DNA of 44,186 bases from a virus: positions 1-44,186 of IMG/VR virus record IMGVR_UViG_3300042945_002683; one strand, 5' to 3'. This document shows positions 15,160-25,747 of the stretch, in pieces (within the stretch, counting starts at the first letter, position 1; every line of letters begins with the position of its first letter). Under the pieces are notes generated by a model. It made no database searches, had not been told where the DNA came from, and saw nothing but the letters and a program-made list of their open reading frames with translations. Position numbers and translations under genes: made by a program.

Positions 15160-17876
15160 TACAGCGTCCTCCTGCTTCGGTCTGTCGGGAGCATTCTACC
15201 CTTTACCTGAGCCCCCACCAGCCTGTATTTGACGTTCGGGAACCAGGTTTCCACGGACGGGAACCACCACTGGGCAAGGGCTCCGTGCTTGCCGAATGCG
15301 ACCCAGTTAGGCGTGTCGCCTCTCTGAATTGATTGGGCGATCAGGGTACCGTCAGCCTTCGCCGGCAAGCCGGTAACCAGGGGCGTAGTTTCGTTCTCCC
15401 GATACAGGCTCCCACGCCAGTACCGATAGGCGGACTCCTCGCCGGAAGACCCCACTACATCAGCAAACACCGCGCCAATGCTGGTGGGCTGCTTGGTCAC
15501 AAACTCCTCGTCCTTGCTATCAGCCAGCTGCAGCGGGCCTCCCGTCCACCGGAAGTACACGGGGGACAGCACAATCTCGCCCTCGCACACGGGCGTAGTC
15601 GCGGAGTTCAGAATCGGGTTCTCGCTCGCAACCGTAATACCGGTGCTCGTTGCGTTGATGATGACTGCCTTAGATCCGTTCTTGGACGTATCCGTCGTGT
15701 TCGCGATGTACACCATCTGCCCGATGAGGTACGACGCCCGTGCGTCAGTGCTCATTCCAAACGGGTTGGCGCCTGAAACAGCGACGCTGATCCCGTTGGT
15801 GCGGGTAATAGAGGTGCACTCGGTATTCCAGTAGGTGTACGAGACGCCGGTGGTAAACGTGCCGTTGGCGCACACGTGCGTTCCGGAGACATCGCCACCC
15901 GTATCCATCATGTAGACGGGCTGGTCTGCCGCCTCGAGTCGGAACTTGTCTCGGTAGTCCTTCGAGGGAGTAAACACAGCGGGCCTGAAGGAGGTGTTGC
16001 TAACCGCATACGGAAGCGGGGCATTCTGCACGAACACCGACCGAGGCTGCAGTTGTCCGCTCTCCTCGACCCAGCCCTGCGTGGTCTTGGCAAACACCAT
16101 GTCCCGCAGCTCGGTTACGACCCCAGTCGAGAACCACATCTGCACCGAGGTCTGCTTGACCGGGTTCAGGATAAACAAGCACAGCGTTGCAGGGTCAAAC
16201 GACATACTTACCCTGCTGAGCTCGGTGGAACCGGTGGTGTCCGAATACCACTCTTCGCTGACGATCTGATTGATCGAGCGAACGTCGTCCAGGCGACCGT
16301 CCGGATAGATCGCTTTGAGCCCCCTCGAGTTCAGGTAGTACGTAACGGGTCCGACAGTCGCGGCAGCGTAGGGTCCGGTGATTCCGTAGCCCTGGTGCGC
16401 CGCAAGCGCGCGAACGTATCCGTTCTCCTTGTTGAACAACTGAATGCCGGTCTTGGTAAACCCGGCCATCACCTGCCCGGTCCTGCGGAAGGCGACCACC
16501 GCATCCCCCACCGCCGAGGGCCTGTAGATCCCGCTGGCGGTAAACATCTCCGGGCTGTCAGAACCGCTCGTGCTCCACCTCGTCTCGCCCGTGCCGCTTG
16601 AATCCGCTGCGCTGTCGCTGATGCTTCCCACCAGCATCGTGCCGTCAAGCAGCGCGCCCGCTCCTCCCTTCGGCATGGTCGTGCTGTACGCGGGCTTGTC
16701 CAGGAACACGTCCTGCATCACAAGCGCAGTGTCCGTCAGCTGGTACGCGTACCGGAAGTAAGTCCACTTGGAGTCAGAGCTCAGCGGGTCTGCACCGCTG
16801 TTGTCGTTGGTCACGTCCTGCATCTGCGCTTTCGTGACCGCGTAGGACGAAACGGTGATGCTGGCCTCAAGCTGCAGGATTCCGTTCGTGAACGCACCAG
16901 CCGCATTCTCGGTGCGAACGCTCCGATAGATGTTCACCGTGTCGAACTTCGTGTTCTCTAGGTACCCGTCAACGAAGAGAGCATGGTTTGCTCCGCTAAA
17001 GGTCACCGCCTCGTTCTTGGTGATCTGGCTCTTTCGTCCGCTCCTGCTGTCCTCAAACTGCACGGCAAGGCTGTAGTGACCTGCAGCAATCTTCGGCGCA
17101 GTCGAGATGTTGGAAATGGTTGTTAGGTGGTTTGACGTGTAGCTGGTGACAGAAGTAAAAGAGAACACGACTGCACCCTGCACGTAGTTTGTGTGGGTAG
17201 TCGTGTCGACCAGAGAAGCAGCAGCGTGCTTTGTAGTTCCCTGGAACTGAGAAGTCTCGGCACTTGACTTCACCAAAATGCCCGGACCAGCGTCAAGCAC
17301 AGAGACCGTCGTGTTCGTACCGTCTGCCTTGAAGTAGATGACCTTCGGCGTGGTTCCCTTTGCAAACACGTAGACCGACTTGCTCGTCGTCTCTACGCTC
17401 ATGATCGCAGTGCCGGCGTCCGAGAGCACGCTTCCGTTTGCGGCCGTGATCCCCTCCCGGACTACGTACGTACTCCAAGTCGCAGTGCCGGACTGCAACG
17501 CGTTGTACGCGACCAGCAGGTCATACGTATCTACGCACGACCCACTCGTATCAGCGCGGCGAACAAGGTACACGTACCCGTACACGCGATAGCTGGTCCC
17601 GGCCAGCACGTTGAATGACCAGAAGTCAACAACCTTGCAGCGGTGCGCGGTAGTGCTGTACGGGTTTGAGCTGACCCAGCCGGTGGCAGTGTCAGGCGTA
17701 AACCGGTACACAAACTTGAATCCGTGGAACGGAACGAGTCCGCCGTTGTTCGAGCCGTCGACCCCCACCAGCTCAGCAGAGGATCCCGCTGGCGTACCGG
17801 TACGTGCGGATGCCTTGCTCTCGCTGGTGTTGAGCAGCGAATAAGTCCAGGTGACGTCGGTTTCTGGGACCTGCAT
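15159..17876 (-). CDS. Large beta-rich tail protein, nozzle-like
   Basis: 905 residues rich in Ser, Thr, Val and Tyr with repeated strands and Gly turns. In the middle it has a block of the style FTKTGIQLF ... GYGITGPYAAATV ... YYLNSRGLKAIYPDG, the beta-propeller-like pattern I associate with T7 gp12-type tail nozzle/stabilisation proteins of short-tailed phages, where each blade reads 'feature display, then DG turn'. Length (T7 gp12 is about 800 residues) and location after the adaptor fit. The alternative is a receptor-binding tail fibre. ATG start with no overlap upstream (9-nt gap). Confidence 0.55.
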   Translation of the reverse strand: MQVPETDVTWTYSLLNTSESKASARTGTPAGSSAELVGVDGSNNGGLVPFHGFKFVYRFTPDTATGWVSSNPYSTTAHRCKVVDFWSFNVLAGTSYRVYGYVYLVRRADTSGSCVDTYDLLVAYNALQSGTATWSTYVVREGITAANGSVLSDAGTAIMSVETTSKSVYVFAKGTTPKVIYFKADGTNTTVSVLDAGPGILVKSSAETSQFQGTTKHAAASLVDTTTHTNYVQGAVVFSFTSVTSYTSNHLTTISNISTAPKIAAGHYSLAVQFEDSRSGRKSQITKNEAVTFSGANHALFVDGYLENTKFDTVNIYRSVRTENAAGAFTNGILQLEASITVSSYAVTKAQMQDVTNDNSGADPLSSDSKWTYFRYAYQLTDTALVMQDVFLDKPAYSTTMPKGGAGALLDGTMLVGSISDSAADSSGTGETRWSTSGSDSPEMFTASGIYRPSAVGDAVVAFRRTGQVMAGFTKTGIQLFNKENGYVRALAAHQGYGITGPYAAATVGPVTYYLNSRGLKAIYPDGRLDDVRSINQIVSEEWYSDTTGSTELSRVSMSFDPATLCLFILNPVKQTSVQMWFSTGVVTELRDMVFAKTTQGWVEESGQLQPRSVFVQNAPLPYAVSNTSFRPAVFTPSKDYRDKFRLEAADQPVYMMDTGGDVSGTHVCANGTFTTGVSYTYWNTECTSITRTNGISVAVSGANPFGMSTDARASYLIGQMVYIANTTDTSKNGSKAVIINATSTGITVASENPILNSATTPVCEGEIVLSPVYFRWTGGPLQLADSKDEEFVTKQPTSIGAVFADVVGSSGEESAYRYWRGSLYRENETTPLVTGLPAKADGTLIAQSIQRGDTPNWVAFGKHGALAQWWFPSVETWFPNVKYRLVGAQVKGRMLPTDRSRRTL

Positions 17877-22331: not shown

Positions 22332-22495
22332 CGCTTCTTCGCCATCTTCCTGAAAGTCTCAGCGAGCTTGTGACGCCTGCTTCCGGGCGGGCACGTGGGA
22401 CCGCCAAACTTTGGACCGGTGCAAACGCCAGCCGTGCCGCGCTTCTTGATGCTTGCCCTGACCTTGCCGATCCAGTTGGTGGGGTTCTTCGCCAC
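22328..22495 (-). CDS. Tiny Lys/Arg-rich protein, GTG start
   Basis: 55 residues starting MAKNPTNWIGKVRASIKKRG, with CTGPKFGGPTCPPGSRR and a C-terminal ETFRKMAKKR. The GTG at 22495 is preferred: AAGGAG lies 6 nt upstream (22503-22508 on the minus strand), and longer in-frame versions run into the GC hairpin. The pattern 'W I ... basic helix ... R/K-rich ending' resembles short lysine-rich proteins seen in phages and large eukaryotic viruses, but no family can be named. Likely nucleic-acid associated. Confidence 0.6.
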   Translation of the reverse strand: MAKNPTNWIGKVRASIKKRGTAGVCTGPKFGGPTCPPGSRRHKLAETFRKMAKKR

Positions 22496-22516
22496 GACAT
22501 GCTCCTTATCGAAAGT

Positions 22517-22540
22517 GGGGCCGGCCCTTCGACCGGCCCC
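22517..22540 (-). terminator. GC-rich hairpin between tiny genes
   Basis: GGGGCCGG (22517-22524) pairs with CCGGCCCC (22533-22540), an 8-bp stem around an 8-nt loop containing TTCG. On the minus strand it follows the 48-aa gene and precedes the AAGGAG site of the 55-aa gene. Only a weak T stretch (CACTTTCGAT) follows, so attenuation or mRNA protection is as likely as termination. Confidence 0.4.
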
Positions 22541-22574
22541 TGCGGGAGTCCCTGCCCGCCCACCCCTCGGTGGT

Positions 22575-22721
22575 TCAGTAGCCCTTGGTCTTGCCGAACG
22601 ACATGCCCTTGGCACGACCCTTCAGCTTCAGGCTCTTCTTGAAACCGCCAGCCGTAGGAAGACCCTTCGGCTTCTTGGTGTTCAGCTTAAGACGACGCTT
22701 GAGTTTCTTCATCGGGTTCAT
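22575..22721 (-). CDS. 48-aa basic micro-protein
   Basis: Short ORF of 49 codons: starts MNPMKKLKRRLKLNTKKPKG and ends GMSFGKTKGY. About a third of residues are Lys or Arg, with no acidic residue at all. Its ATG (22721-22719) is fused to the stop of the next upstream micro-gene as TGATG, which supports real translation by coupling. It is in the run of basic proteins behind the major capsid gene. A DNA- or RNA-binding or capsid-interior role is inferred. Confidence 0.6.
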   Translation of the reverse strand: MNPMKKLKRRLKLNTKKPKGLPTAGGFKKSLKLKGRAKGMSFGKTKGY

Positions 22722-22798
22722 CACTTGCAGCCTCCCTTGCAGTTGCACATGCTCTTGCCGCAGCTCTTGCAGCCCTTGACCTTGATCTTCTTAGCCAT
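22721..22798 (-). CDS. 25-aa Cys/Lys-rich micro-protein
   Basis: Sequence starts MAKKIKVKGCKSCGKSM and ends CNCKGGCK: five Cys in the order CxxC, CxC, C, and nine Lys. The Cys spacing resembles a tiny zinc knuckle or metallothionein-like site. AAGGAG lies 7 nt before the ATG. The start overlaps the end of the DUF5872-like gene (AATGGCTAA) and the stop is fused to the next ATG (TGATG). The first nine residues nearly repeat the start of the 101-aa protein at 23418 (MAKRIKVKG). Confidence 0.6.
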   Translation of the reverse strand: MAKKIKVKGCKSCGKSMCNCKGGCK

Positions 22799-23165
22799 TG
22801 CCGAGTCTCCTTAGCCGCCGAATCGGCGACACCTTCTTGCCGAACGCGCCGTGCATACCAACACGGCTCTTCTCCGCCTTCTTCCTCGCCAGCTCCCCCC
22901 CACCCATCTCGCCCTTCGTCTTGGGCGTCTTGCTGCTCACGCGGCGGGTGGGGCGGCAGTACTCATTCGATCCGCCTGCGCCGCACGGCTTGCCCGTCTT
23001 GGTGTCCTGCCACTTCTCCGCACCCCACCTCTTCAGGTTCGCACCGGCTTGCGTCTTACGCACGTTGCCGCTGGCCTTTCTGCACTTGGCCGTGGCCTGC
23101 GCTGCACGCGCCGACCACTTGCCGTACGAGGCCATCACCTTGCGGTAGCACGCGTCCTTCGCCAT
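22791..23165 (-). CDS. DUF5872-like basic protein
   Basis: 124 residues. The core NLKRWGAEKWQDTKTGKPCG followed by EYCRPTRRVSSKTPKTKGEM matches my recollection of the DUF5872 pattern (RW..E.W.D.KTGKPCG ... YCRP..RVSSKTPKT), found in phages and in large eukaryotic DNA viruses. Function of the family is not established. The protein is very basic with four Cys, so nucleic-acid or metal binding is possible. ATG start with a 1-nt gap to the upstream gene. Confidence 0.7.
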   Translation of the reverse strand: MAKDACYRKVMASYGKWSARAAQATAKCRKASGNVRKTQAGANLKRWGAEKWQDTKTGKPCGAGGSNEYCRPTRRVSSKTPKTKGEMGGGELARKKAEKSRVGMHGAFGKKVSPIRRLRRLGNG

Positions 23166-23166
23166 G

Positions 23167-23409
23167 TCAGCACTTCCAAGCTCTGCGCGCCTTGCGCAAA
23201 CGACTGTTCGGGTCCTTTGCAGCCTTCGGCCACATCTTCATCTGGCCCGCCGATCGAGCACAGAACGAGTCGCGACGAGATCCGCCCTCGGGTTGCGGAC
23301 GCTTGAGGTTTCCGCCCGTGGCGCGGTTGTACGCACGCCGCCCGAGCTCAGTAAGCCCGCCAGCGGGATTCTTGTGCTTGGCCTTGAAATCGAAGCGCTT
23401 CTTCGCCAC
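23167..23409 (-). CDS. DUF6321-like basic protein
   Basis: 80 residues: MAKKRFDFKAKHKNPAGGLT, then GRRAYNRATGGNLKRP, SRRDSFCARSAGQM and a basic end (SRLRKARRAWKC). The order 'NPaGGLt..GR.ayn..tG.nLk.P......RR.sFCaRs.g' matches DUF6321, another family shared by phages and giant viruses. Function unknown. GTG start at 23409. It is directly upstream of the DUF5872-like gene, and both may package or protect nucleic acid in the head. Confidence 0.7.
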   Translation of the reverse strand: MAKKRFDFKAKHKNPAGGLTELGRRAYNRATGGNLKRPQPEGGSRRDSFCARSAGQMKMWPKAAKDPNSRLRKARRAWKC

Positions 23410-23417
23410 GGTCAGTA

Positions 23418-23723
23418 TTACTCCCCAAATTCTTTAAGGATGAGGCGCTTGAGCTCCTCGGCTCTAATGTTTCGCATCTGACGGGGACCGATGAACTTGC
23501 GGCTACCTTCCTTCACAAGCTTCTTGAGCTGGGACGAAGGACGAGACGAAACATCCTTGCCGGCCTTTTCCATCTGCTCCCGCGTGTTACTCCAGTTCCT
23601 GTTGTAATCGCGAGTCAGGGTGGAACCCGCCTCCGCAACCTTGCTGCTTGCGTTAAGAATTCTTCGCTGAACCTTGCTGAATCCGCGGGGGTTCTTGCCC
23701 TTGACCTTGATGCGCTTTGCCAT
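23418..23723 (-). CDS. Basic 101-aa protein
   Basis: Starts MAKRIKVKGKNPRGFSKVQR, then helical and basic (ILNASSKVAEAGSTL, REQMEKAGKDVSSR) to a charged end (RAEELKRLILKEFGE). The ATG at 23723 is chosen because a longer in-frame version would run through the end of the upstream gene. The N-terminus is nearly identical to that of the 25-aa protein at 22721. Function unknown. Confidence 0.55.
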   Translation of the reverse strand: MAKRIKVKGKNPRGFSKVQRRILNASSKVAEAGSTLTRDYNRNWSNTREQMEKAGKDVSSRPSSQLKKLVKEGSRKFIGPRQMRNIRAEELKRLILKEFGE

Positions 23724-23727
23724 GTGA

Positions 23728-24144
23728 TTACTTCTGGGTAAGGAGGTAACGGGTCTTCTGGACGAGAGCCAGCATCTCGTCACGGATGTTCATAAGCGAC
23801 GTCTCGTTCTCGCCGATGTCGGACGGGATCTCGTTGCGCAGCACGCCCTCAAGCGTGGACAGGATCTTGCTGGCGTCCCCACCAACCGTCAGCGTGGTGT
23901 TCGGGGACAGGATGCCGCGACCCTTCGCGCCGACCGCAGTCTCGACGAACGTGTCGATCAGGCCGTCCAGGCCCTCGTACGCCCCGCCCAGAGCCATGTG
24001 CTCGGCGTGGCTGAAAGTGAGCCAGTGCTGTAGGCGCAGGGACTGCTGTGCCTCCATGAGCTTGAAGATGCAACCGCACTTGGCAGCCTGCTTTTGCGCG
24101 GGCTTGGTGGGTGCCTCGGGCGGGTTGACGATGCGGATTGCCAT
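23728..24144 (-). CDS. DUF5856/ferritin-like helical protein
   Basis: 138 residues. The helix QSLRLQHWLTFSHAEHMALG followed by YEGLDGLIDTFVETAVG resembles the DUF5856 proteins of T4-like and algal viruses ('l..qlk.fHW.t.syaeHkAl...Y..l.dl.D.fvE'), which look like ferritin/Dps-type four-helix bundles. H and E residues in the first two helices would be candidate metal ligands, but binding is not shown. Cys22 and Cys24 precede the bundle. It lies just after the capsid terminator, so it may have its own promoter within 24145-24220. Confidence 0.6.
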   Translation of the reverse strand: MAIRIVNPPEAPTKPAQKQAAKCGCIFKLMEAQQSLRLQHWLTFSHAEHMALGGAYEGLDGLIDTFVETAVGAKGRGILSPNTTLTVGGDASKILSTLEGVLRNEIPSDIGENETSLMNIRDEMLALVQKTRYLLTQK

Positions 24145-24159
24145 GCGTCCATTTTAGCA

Positions 24160-24200
24160 AAGAAGAAGGGGTGTGCCCCGAAGGACACACCCCTTTTGTT
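24160..24200 (-). terminator. Strong rho-independent terminator after the capsid gene
   Basis: Arms AAGGGGTGTG (24166-24175) and CACACCCCTT (24186-24195) form a 10-bp stem around a GAA-containing loop. On the minus strand the T-rich tail CTTCTTCTTTG follows directly, and on the plus strand TTTTGTT, so it could work in both directions. It lies 21 nt after the major capsid stop, a typical place for a terminator that raises capsid over downstream genes. Confidence 0.8.
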
Positions 24201-24220: not shown

Positions 24221-25747
24221 TCAGTCGCCGTACACCTTGTCGTAGGTCACGCCATCAAGCTTCATGCCGGCGGGCTGATCCGGGACAAGCTGCATGCGCA
24301 GCATGCCCGGCATCTGAGCGCCTTCCGTCAGGAGGCTGTTGCCGCTGGCACCGCTCGTCTTGGTGATCGGCACCTTGATCGTGGAGTATCCGAGGGCCGG
24401 GGCCACGAACTCGAACGGAATGAAAGCCTCGGCCTTGTCGAACTTCTGGGTGCCCTTCGGGCTCGGCGGAACGTACTTCTTCCAGTTCGCGCCACCCTTG
24501 CGGAGACCGTAGACCGTGCCGTTCTCGATGTAGTTCGAGGTGTAGCCGGTGTACGTGCGTCCGTCGAAGGTGAACTTGAAGCCTTCCTGGCTGCCTTCGT
24601 TGGTGAGCGACGAGAGCTTGCCGGTACGGTCCAGGTTGTACTGGCCGATCTTCTGGCTCTCGTAGTTCAGCCACACGCCGTCGCTGGCGATGAGGCAGTC
24701 GATGTACTGGCCGTACTTCTCCTTCGCACGGTGGAAGCCGCGGAGATACTGACGCATCTTGTGCTCGGTCAGCGTGCCGACCGAGGACTTGAAGAACGAC
24801 TTGAACTCCGGGTGCTTGTCAACGTCGATCTGGTTGTCAGTCGAACCGTCGGCGTCAGTACCAAGAAGGTTGCCGGTCTTCTTGAGCCAGCTGTTGATGC
24901 CGGCGATGCCGTAACCACGACCGTTGGCGTACGTGAAGTAGCCGGCAGTCGTGATGCTGGTACCGGTGGTGTCCTTGCCGAGGACCGTGATGATGACCTG
25001 GTTCTTCACCTCGTCAACACGGGTAACAAAGGCGTTGTTACGAACACTGGCAGTCTCGTTCACGCGAACATCGGCGTTCGTGTAAACATCCACGCGCATG
25101 CCGACCGCATAACGGTCGATGTTGCCTTCACCGGGGGTGAAGGTGTACGTGGTGTTGCCGGTCGTGGAGCTGTACGCAATGCCGCTGCCGCTGGACAGGG
25201 TCGCGGACGGGCTACCAAGCTTGTAGCTGGTGTTGTCCGAGATGTACCAGTAGTTGCAGAGCGTGTGCGCGATCAGGCGAGCGTGACCCTCGAGCTTGGG
25301 CGCAAGGATCTCGCCGATGAACGCCGGGGTCGCCTCAGCCTGCATCTCACCGAGGGTGACGAGCAGGTTGGAAACCATGGCCTTCATGCCGATGCCAAGG
25401 CGGTACGGCTTGGCCATAGCGCCTTCAACAGCGTCCGGCCAAGTGTTCGTAAGGCCCTGGGTCTGCATCTTGTCCGCAACGTTAATGACGGTGTTGTCAC
25501 CGTACAGAACGAAGTTGTTGCGGGTGTCAGCCATCTCCAGCACGCCAGCCATCGAGCCCATGTAGATCTTGAGGATCTTCATGTCGCGACCGATCAGGTT
25601 GGACTGACCGACGCCCTGGCTGGAAACCGTGGTATCCCGCCACGCCGGGTCGAGGGCCGGAAGGAACACCTCGATGTTCTTGTTGAGGATCTCCTGAATG
25701 CGCGTGCTCTGCGCATTGAAGAGAGAGTAGGTAGGTGCAAAAGGCAC
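24221..25747 (-). CDS. Major capsid protein
   Basis: 508 residues, just downstream of the scaffold and portal genes and followed by a strong terminator: the canonical place and expression setting for the major head protein. The sequence is balanced alpha/beta with an N-terminal helix (STRIQEILNKNIEVFLPALD), a central Ser/Thr/Gly-rich loop region that may be an insertion domain, and a C-terminal strand block (MRLQLVPDQPAGMKLDG-type end). An HK97 fold is expected for such genes but cannot be shown by eye. GTG start with GGAG upstream. Confidence 0.8.
   Translation of the reverse strand: MPFAPTYSLFNAQSTRIQEILNKNIEVFLPALDPAWRDTTVSSQGVGQSNLIGRDMKILKIYMGSMAGVLEMADTRNNFVLYGDNTVINVADKMQTQGLTNTWPDAVEGAMAKPYRLGIGMKAMVSNLLVTLGEMQAEATPAFIGEILAPKLEGHARLIAHTLCNYWYISDNTSYKLGSPSATLSSGSGIAYSSTTGNTTYTFTPGEGNIDRYAVGMRVDVYTNADVRVNETASVRNNAFVTRVDEVKNQVIITVLGKDTTGTSITTAGYFTYANGRGYGIAGINSWLKKTGNLLGTDADGSTDNQIDVDKHPEFKSFFKSSVGTLTEHKMRQYLRGFHRAKEKYGQYIDCLIASDGVWLNYESQKIGQYNLDRTGKLSSLTNEGSQEGFKFTFDGRTYTGYTSNYIENGTVYGLRKGGANWKKYVPPSPKGTQKFDKAEAFIPFEFVAPALGYSTIKVPITKTSGASGNSLLTEGAQMPGMLRMQLVPDQPAGMKLDGVTYDKVYGD

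Follow-up and report, generated by a model that had tools for sequence, protein, structure and literature searches.

Two probable basic microgenes and a conserved three-hairpin element form a constant unit behind a putative phage capsid gene

The closest comparison for the 25-residue protein considered here is with zinc-knuckle and zinc-ribbon micro-domains of the retroviral nucleocapsid type. HK022 put RNA and lambda N with boxB are antitermination systems, and in T7 a terminator lies behind the major capsid gene. Tailed phages are not known to need protamine-like proteins. Such DNA-condensing proteins are described for eukaryotic dsDNA viruses in a passage of PMC6163548, while in a passage of PMC8008677 the Dps-like proteins of 'Gratiaviridae' phages are proposed to aid host tolerance of oxidative damage.

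The window, by which we mean the whole stretch of DNA analysed, comprises the 44,186 bases of a virus record. On its minus strand a DUF5872 gene is followed by ORFs of 25 and 48 amino acids, a gap of 79 nt and a 55-aa gene. The original prediction singled out the two short ORFs, whose sequence and coordinates were checked and are as it gave them. The AAGGAG site that it placed before the 25-aa start is present at 22812-22807, 8 nt from the ATG, and the two junctions that it described are in place: the 25-aa ATG overlaps the DUF5872 stop by 8 nt (ATGGCTAA) and the two ORFs share a single base (TGATG). The 25-aa protein reads MAKKIKVKGCKSCGKSMCNCKGGCK; like the 48-aa protein, for which this had already been pointed out, it contains no Asp or Glu. 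The features of this part of the locus are as follows.

23418..23723, minus strand: 101-aa basic protein; its start, MAKRIKVKG, resembles that of the 25-aa protein
23167..23409, minus strand: DUF6321 protein, 80 aa (PF19846, E=2.6e-17); member of the same basic run
22791..23165, minus strand: DUF5872 protein, 124 aa (PF19197, E=3.4e-10); upstream neighbour, its stop overlapping the 25-aa start
22807..22812, minus strand: AAGGAG, ribosome-binding site of the 25-aa gene by sequence, within the 3' end of the DUF5872 gene
22721..22798, minus strand: 25-aa gene; MAKKIKVKG start and C-x2-C-x4-C-x-C-x3-C, 8 Lys, no acidic residue; homologues in 17 of 54 capsid-matched loci and in L076
22731..22736, minus strand: GGGAGG, likely ribosome-binding site of the 48-aa gene, built from KGG codons of the 25-aa gene
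22575..22721, minus strand: 48-aa gene; basic N-terminal segment (predicted helix 3-15), C-terminus FGKTKGY, no acidic residue
22504..22573, minus strand: conserved element of three tandem hairpins (22573-22560, 22559-22542 and 22540-22517), beginning 1 base past the 48-aa stop codon
22328..22495, minus strand: 55-aa basic protein, beyond the three-hairpin element

Sequence comparison indicates that the 25-aa and 48-aa ORFs are very probably real genes. They recur together in related phages known from environmental samples. The 14 distinct 25-aa and 16 distinct 48-aa sequences each maintain one open frame with no stops. No frame-disrupting indel or stop codon, the sign against the genes that the original prediction had named, was seen in close relatives, among homologues recognised by protein similarity, a procedure by which a broken copy could be missed. 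The conservativeness of the codon changes was equalled by 7 of 500 column shuffles for the 25-aa gene, a moderate result, and by none of 500 for the 48-aa gene, a strong one; stop-free shuffles numbered 17/500 and 0/500, respectively. An antisense ORF (22395-22814, plus strand) is not conserved along the 48-aa gene, whose three antisense frames contain stops in 4, 11 and 14 of the 16 relatives; none of the five alternative frames of this gene is stop-free in all rows. Along the 25-aa gene two of the five, both antisense, are stop-free in all 14 rows, so that frame alone is not decisive there. Pooled pN/pS values of 0.46 (25-aa) and 0.70 (48-aa) lie above those of the neighbours (0.17 for DUF5872, 0.17 for DUF6321 and 0.22 for the 55-aa gene); constraint on the microgenes is therefore discernible, though more relaxed. 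Taken alone, the codon test is modest for the 25-aa gene, whose genomic context is the stronger argument.

Relatives were taken as the 54 viral contigs matched in a scan with the putative capsid protein. The 25-aa gene is present in 17 of these, all with capsid identity of at least 71%, and in one additional contig from other scans (L070/L076); a 48-aa-type gene follows it wherever the contig is long enough. At capsid identities of at least 71%, every contig showing the place (17 contigs and the window) contains the 25-aa gene. Among the 37 contigs without it, eight end too early (L006, L009, L014, L018, L020, L021, L032 and L033; in L020 some 190 nt are visible behind DUF6321 and the 25-aa gene is not there), and seven with 64-66% capsid identity are without the unit (L024 and L026-L031). 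The other 22 (L034-L055, 44-48%) have no same-strand match to the 25-aa, DUF6321 or DUF5872 gene in the stretch covered, which in L051 stops at the capsid gene. A profile scan of viral_contigs for the 25-aa gene gave nine loci, all among contigs already in the set, and within 79 DUF5872 loci (L076-L154; 80 taken of at least 567) it was found only in L076. Six capsid relatives reached through DUF5872 (L077-L081 and L083) possess the DUF6321, DUF5872 and 55-aa genes and have no 25-aa match at E up to 1; in L078-L081 and L083 the DUF5872 stop is overlapped by the 55-aa gene, the extent being 8 nt and so equal to that of the 25-aa overlap in the window. The same six contigs, in which the unit is absent, carry behind the capsid gene a protein with a GNHDDN motif (668-1510 in L077, 1240-2007 in L078, likewise in L079-L081 and L083), which presumably resembles that of metallophosphoesterases.

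No Pfam, PHROGs, NCBIfam or PADLOC model and no PDB sequence matches either microprotein. In a tblastn search of 50,697 phage records the 48-aa protein had no hit at E up to 1, and the 25-aa protein hit only one Vibrio virus (two records) at E=3, which was not taken as kin. Two further sets of candidates were not taken as homologous: a 33-aa Lys-rich peptide with four Cys (CxxC and CxC) near the DUF5872 gene of L105 (1970-2071), and partial CxxCGK matches in L128, L133, L141, L147 and L149, situated within other, mostly longer proteins. No relative of the putative capsid protein was found in genome_contigs.

In 17 of 18 rows, those other than L015, an upstream gene could be made out, and in each of them its stop is overlapped by the 25-aa start. 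These upstream genes are of four kinds: DUF5872 (8 nt overlap), DUF6321 or a 45-aa gene (TAATG), and a 64/65-aa gene (1 or 4 nt). Retention of the overlap despite differing upstream genes bears out the original prediction's view that the coupling is hard to explain by chance. Where the 25-aa gene and the next one touch or nearly do so, inspection by eye places a GGAGG-type site for the next gene (in L015 the variant AAGGAG) within the last 25-aa codons. In L007, L008, L010, L013, L017 and L019 the genes are further apart; there, again by eye, the GGAGG-type codons are missing from the 25-aa end and the ribosome site is at or past the stop. The presence or absence of ribosome-site codons may explain the differences in length at the 25-aa C-terminus.

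Both microproteins are small and strongly basic, Lys and Arg accounting for 8 of 25 and 17 of 48 residues. The 11 distinct 25-aa proteins share an invariant K-K-x-K-V-K-G, CxxC and one later Cys, making three invariant Cys columns in the alignment; the number of Cys is five in 17 of 18 rows and four in the other, and the Lys-rich start is kept in 18/18 rows across several genomic contexts. A K-hydrophobic-K-hydrophobic-K-G motif also opens the 101-aa gene, and inspection by eye shows similar stretches in further small genes of the relatives' runs. Relatives of the 48-aa protein fall to 37% identity with that of the window, while F42 and G43, in the FG-containing basic end, are invariant in 14 and in 18 sequences; the model, of low confidence (pLDDT 64), predicts a basic helix at residues 3-15. 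Three contigs without the unit have a single gene in which 48-aa-like ends surround a four-Cys core (L024 10974-11108, L026 2978-3142 and L028 11285-11449), and L027 has a similar single gene without Cys. The sequences hint at a possible fusion of the two microgenes in L024, L026 and L028, profile comparison of the single gene with the microproteins giving probabilities of only 50% and 26%. A viral_contigs scan for this fusion-like gene found three loci, all on contigs already in the set.

The hairpin element is about 70 nt long and better conserved than the surrounding genes, the frozen stretch starting only past the 48-aa stop; in 13 element sequences, 49 columns are invariant. Hairpins 2 and 3 are recovered by RNAalifold, and hairpin 1 is present in the window fold (z -3.5) and in four of five relatives folded, with a different minimum-energy fold for the L017 element. 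Hairpin 3, which ranks as GC-rich, comprises 10 pairs in all 12 distinct sequences. One of its pairs is doubly changed, occurring as C-G, A-U and U-A; all 180 cells form standard pairs, the other 14 pairs being invariant and hence uninformative. With a covariance model the 53 sources fall into 16 that have the element, scoring 87-96.5 bits, and the rest, whose best match scores 17 bits. Thirteen of the 16 had contributed sequences to the model; L002, L019 and L023 have elements identical to those of other sources. A complete pair and sequence extending past it are found in precisely these 16, L005, L008 and L025 ending too soon for the element. Rfam gave no match in the window at gathering score, and a search of genome_contigs for a 29-base stretch of the element gave no exact match. 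A 19-base pattern matched 16 stretches of viral_contigs, of which 14 lie on contigs already in the set and one revealed L070 as new kin; the match in L060, inside a 232-aa ORF of an unrelated contig, was dropped as chance.

No T-rich tail follows the hairpins, only TTTC, and the terminator scan omits the element. Beyond it a TANNNT-6-ATG site occurs in L012, L015 and L016, and GATAAGGA in 9 of the 16 element sources (partly by eye). The element also contains a G-quadruplex candidate, GGGGTGGGCGGGCAGGG, the first G run of which is shortened in L010, L013 and L015. Read-through of the 48-aa stop into the element was considered and rejected: the window is open as far as a TAA (by eye), and in L003, L022 and others a TGA comes three codons on. 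The element may, with low certainty, be the 3' boundary of the run, and its frozen hairpin loops suggest a specific reader. Small late phage genes are of a known kind; the novel part is the fixed link of the microgenes to a conserved hairpin element.

The genes upstream of the microgenes lead back to the putative capsid gene through the following features.

24221-25747: putative major capsid protein, 508 aa
24166..24195, minus strand: hairpin resembling an intrinsic terminator, behind the putative capsid gene; 13 pairs, loop containing TTCG
24151..24156, minus strand: TAAAAT, a -10-like hexamer exactly 6 nt ahead of the DUF5856 ATG; leaderless-promoter layout
23728..24144, minus strand: DUF5856 protein, 138 aa; predicted ferritin/Dps-like four-helix bundle, first gene after the promoter-like site, not basic

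Position is the reason for calling the 508-aa protein the putative major capsid protein: its gene comes after those of a terminase (phrog_38, E=3.6e-33), a 664-aa protein and an acidic 292-aa protein. It has no accepted Pfam or PHROGs match and only one, sub-threshold, in NCBIfam. Behind its gene lies the basic run, six consecutive genes (101-aa, DUF6321, DUF5872, 25-aa, 48-aa and 55-aa) with net charges of +0.17 to +0.35 per residue. Of the 25 minus-strand ORFs chosen, the remaining 19 range from -0.08 to +0.12. DUF6321 has matches in 446 phage records, for the most part those of cyanophages and in some cases of Pelagibacter; within PHROGs, its matches are to the C-terminal end of several longer families. 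Neither it nor DUF5856 is mentioned in the literature searched. DUF5872 is very widespread in viral contigs, with at least 567 relatives in one scan, and in the literature searched appears in one paper, as a table entry for an alga virus.

The terminator-like hairpin at 24166-24195 has a T-rich tail. The terminator scan found eight such sites over 11 kb as against 8.5 expected from shuffles and therefore proves nothing alone; by eye, the hairpin is kept in close relatives with changes on both arms. TANNNT stands 6 nt before the first start codon of the run in 29 of 29 contigs inspected, window included (26 scripted, three by eye), a layout retained though the first gene differs among contigs. 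In the window it precedes just 3 of 1183 ATGs, the other two being the start of a 905-aa gene at 17876 on the minus strand (TAAGAT) and that of an ORF of 5 codons. In standard sigma-70 geometry a TANNNT placed 6 nt before the ATG would put the transcription start at the ATG itself, and we infer from the sequence that the mRNA of the run, directed by TAAAAT at 24151-24156, would be leaderless. This site is not listed by a sigma-70 scan that also demanded a -35 box.

DUF5856, the first gene, matches PHROG 858 (E=1.2e-13) and is modelled as a four-helix bundle (pLDDT 79). Among the 50 PDB matches listed in a fold search with this model, 49 are Dps, Dps-like or bacterioferritin structures and one, at rank 14, is a pectin methylesterase inhibitor, with TM values by query of up to 0.60 and E-values of 0.05 or worse. 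Judged by its model and its PHROG match, DUF5856 looks like a Dps/ferritin-like four-helix protein. It has no match in several relatives bearing the unit (e.g. L007, L016, L017, L019, L022 and L023), and the Dps-like partner is therefore not fixed.

Two points go beyond the original prediction: the pair forms a constant unit with the conserved three-hairpin element, in a run that has a promoter-like site to itself, and this unit is one about which DUF5872 and further genes shift position. The unit comprises the 25-aa gene, 0-2 small basic genes, the 48-aa-type gene and the element, and beyond the element lies the 55-aa basic gene in the window and most relatives. Arrangements (DUF5872 before the unit, after it or not seen, or the unit lacking) were placed on a capsid tree of 23 sequences, 18 with the unit and five of the seven without. 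They require nine changes, the least possible being four; the shuffled mean was 13.0 and no shuffle of 200 was as low as observed, so that arrangements are also clustered by kinship. Counted separately, 'after' needs three changes and 'before' four, and L003 (DUF5872 after) and L004 (not seen) are very close; 'not seen' means absent from the stretch covered, which in L004, L010, L011 and L012 runs out shortly past the 55-aa gene. All five sequences lacking the unit group together (100/100); rooted by midpoint only, the tree is compatible with gain as well as with loss of the unit.

What the microproteins do may be considered under several readings, among which action on phage DNA is placed first, host- or defence-directed peptides second and regulation through the element third. 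Our leading reading, a tentative one that falls short of being probable, is that they are late basic nucleic-acid-binding microproteins, the 25-aa one probably binding metal, that act on phage DNA beside a Dps-like neighbour. Nucleic-acid binding is the most economical proposal in view of their extreme basicity, the core of four or five Cys, a location after the capsid gene and neighbours that are Dps-like or basic. We counted in its favour the open frames, coupled starts, invariant motif and Cys, lack of acidic residues and six-gene basic run, together with the Dps/bacterioferritin-like DUF5856, the fusion-like gene and an element that tracks the unit. Counted against it are the fast evolution of the microproteins, which fits accessory roles as well as structural ones, the absence of the unit from other capsid relatives, the low-confidence 48-aa model, and a DUF5856 that is neither basic nor a fixed partner and whose fold matches have E-values of 0.05 or worse. 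Fast evolution, along with neighbours that are gained, lost or moved, would also suit accessory peptides aimed at the host or its defences, for which the site behind the capsid gene would be no more than a place of late expression. We consider this doubtful though deserving of attention, since typical counter-defence genes are not known to be kept as consistently as the 25-aa gene is among capsid matches of at least 71%; the lack of a PADLOC match also speaks against it, weakly, that library being one of defence proteins.

Regulation of RNA is an unlikely reading, in which the microproteins would bind the element in nascent mRNA and control downstream termination or translation, by analogy with lambda N and boxB or with a self-repressing RNA-binding protein. 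The confinement of the element to the 16 pair-bearing sources (at most 17 bits elsewhere among the 53), the basic N-terminal helix predicted in the 48-aa protein and the doubly changed pair of hairpin 3, with its three pair types, are all consistent with it. However, the element is nearly invariant whereas the 48-aa protein changes fast; the latter is therefore an unlikely reader of so frozen a site, and a host factor a likelier one. Rather improbable, too, is that the unit is a self-contained phage device, a ribonucleoprotein switch setting the ratio of head to tail gene products. Its nearly frozen RNA of three hairpins would be read by a host factor or by the two basic microproteins themselves, one of them bearing a cysteine metal knuckle, and other genes could be exchanged around the device. 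We give little credence to the 25-aa ORF as a translational relay with an inert product that lifts 48-aa expression: the next gene's ribosome site does lie in its last codons where the genes touch, and the coding test is weaker with two antisense frames open, but a relay needs no particular residues and the Lys-rich start and the Cys persist in all 18 rows across contexts. Finally, it is hardly conceivable that an RNA accounts for the conservation and that the ORFs arise as its by-products; the structured element directly behind them is indeed strongly conserved, yet over the ORFs it is the codon frame that governs the changes, clearly so in the 48-aa gene and to a moderate degree in the 25-aa gene, and the frozen stretch does not reach back over the 48-aa stop.

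In the leading reading, the genes from DUF5856 to the 48-aa gene would form a late transcription unit, expressed from a leaderless promoter that follows directly on the capsid terminator, up to a 3' boundary set by the hairpin element. The 25-aa protein would fold round a metal ion, probably zinc, through its four or five cysteines and extend a Lys-rich arm, the 48-aa protein would supply a basic helix and a basic tail, and both would bind nucleic acid. Production of the two could be kept in step by the stop-start coupling, with the 48-aa ribosome site written into the last 25-aa codons. Together with DUF5856, where present, and the basic DUF6321, DUF5872 and 55-aa proteins, they might serve to coat the phage DNA or to condense it at a late stage of infection, perhaps within the head. 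Since L077-L081 and L083 keep the DUF6321, DUF5872 and 55-aa genes without the unit, it would not be needed in every such virion.

A gene of 25 codons, discarded by length cut-offs, can thus be one of the most persistent components of a phage late region: all close relatives that show the place have it, while larger neighbours come and go. The conserved hairpin element directly behind the microgenes, absent from Rfam, makes the pair a handle on the role of such microproteins.

Compared with known systems, the 25-aa protein has no Pfam, NCBIfam or PDB sequence match to zinc-binding families or structures; it resembles zinc knuckles and ribbons in having a CxxC and further Cys within 15 residues beside a Lys-rich flank, and differs in lacking His and in a CX2CX4CXCX3C spacing that varies among homologues. 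Small size and strong basicity are shared with the protamine-like proteins as they are described in the passage of PMC6163548, a resemblance of composition rather than of demonstrated sequence kinship. As in the 'Gratiaviridae' of the PMC8008677 passage, a ferritin/Dps-like gene is present in a phage genome, but here it precedes a run of basic microgenes. Conserved tandem hairpins in phage mRNA beside genes for basic peptides recall HK022 put and lambda N-boxB; unlike these, the element lies between late genes and has no Rfam match. The hairpin at 24166-24195, right behind the putative capsid gene, has a counterpart in the T7 terminator, whereas the leaderless-type promoter layout that comes at once after it sets this locus apart from T7.
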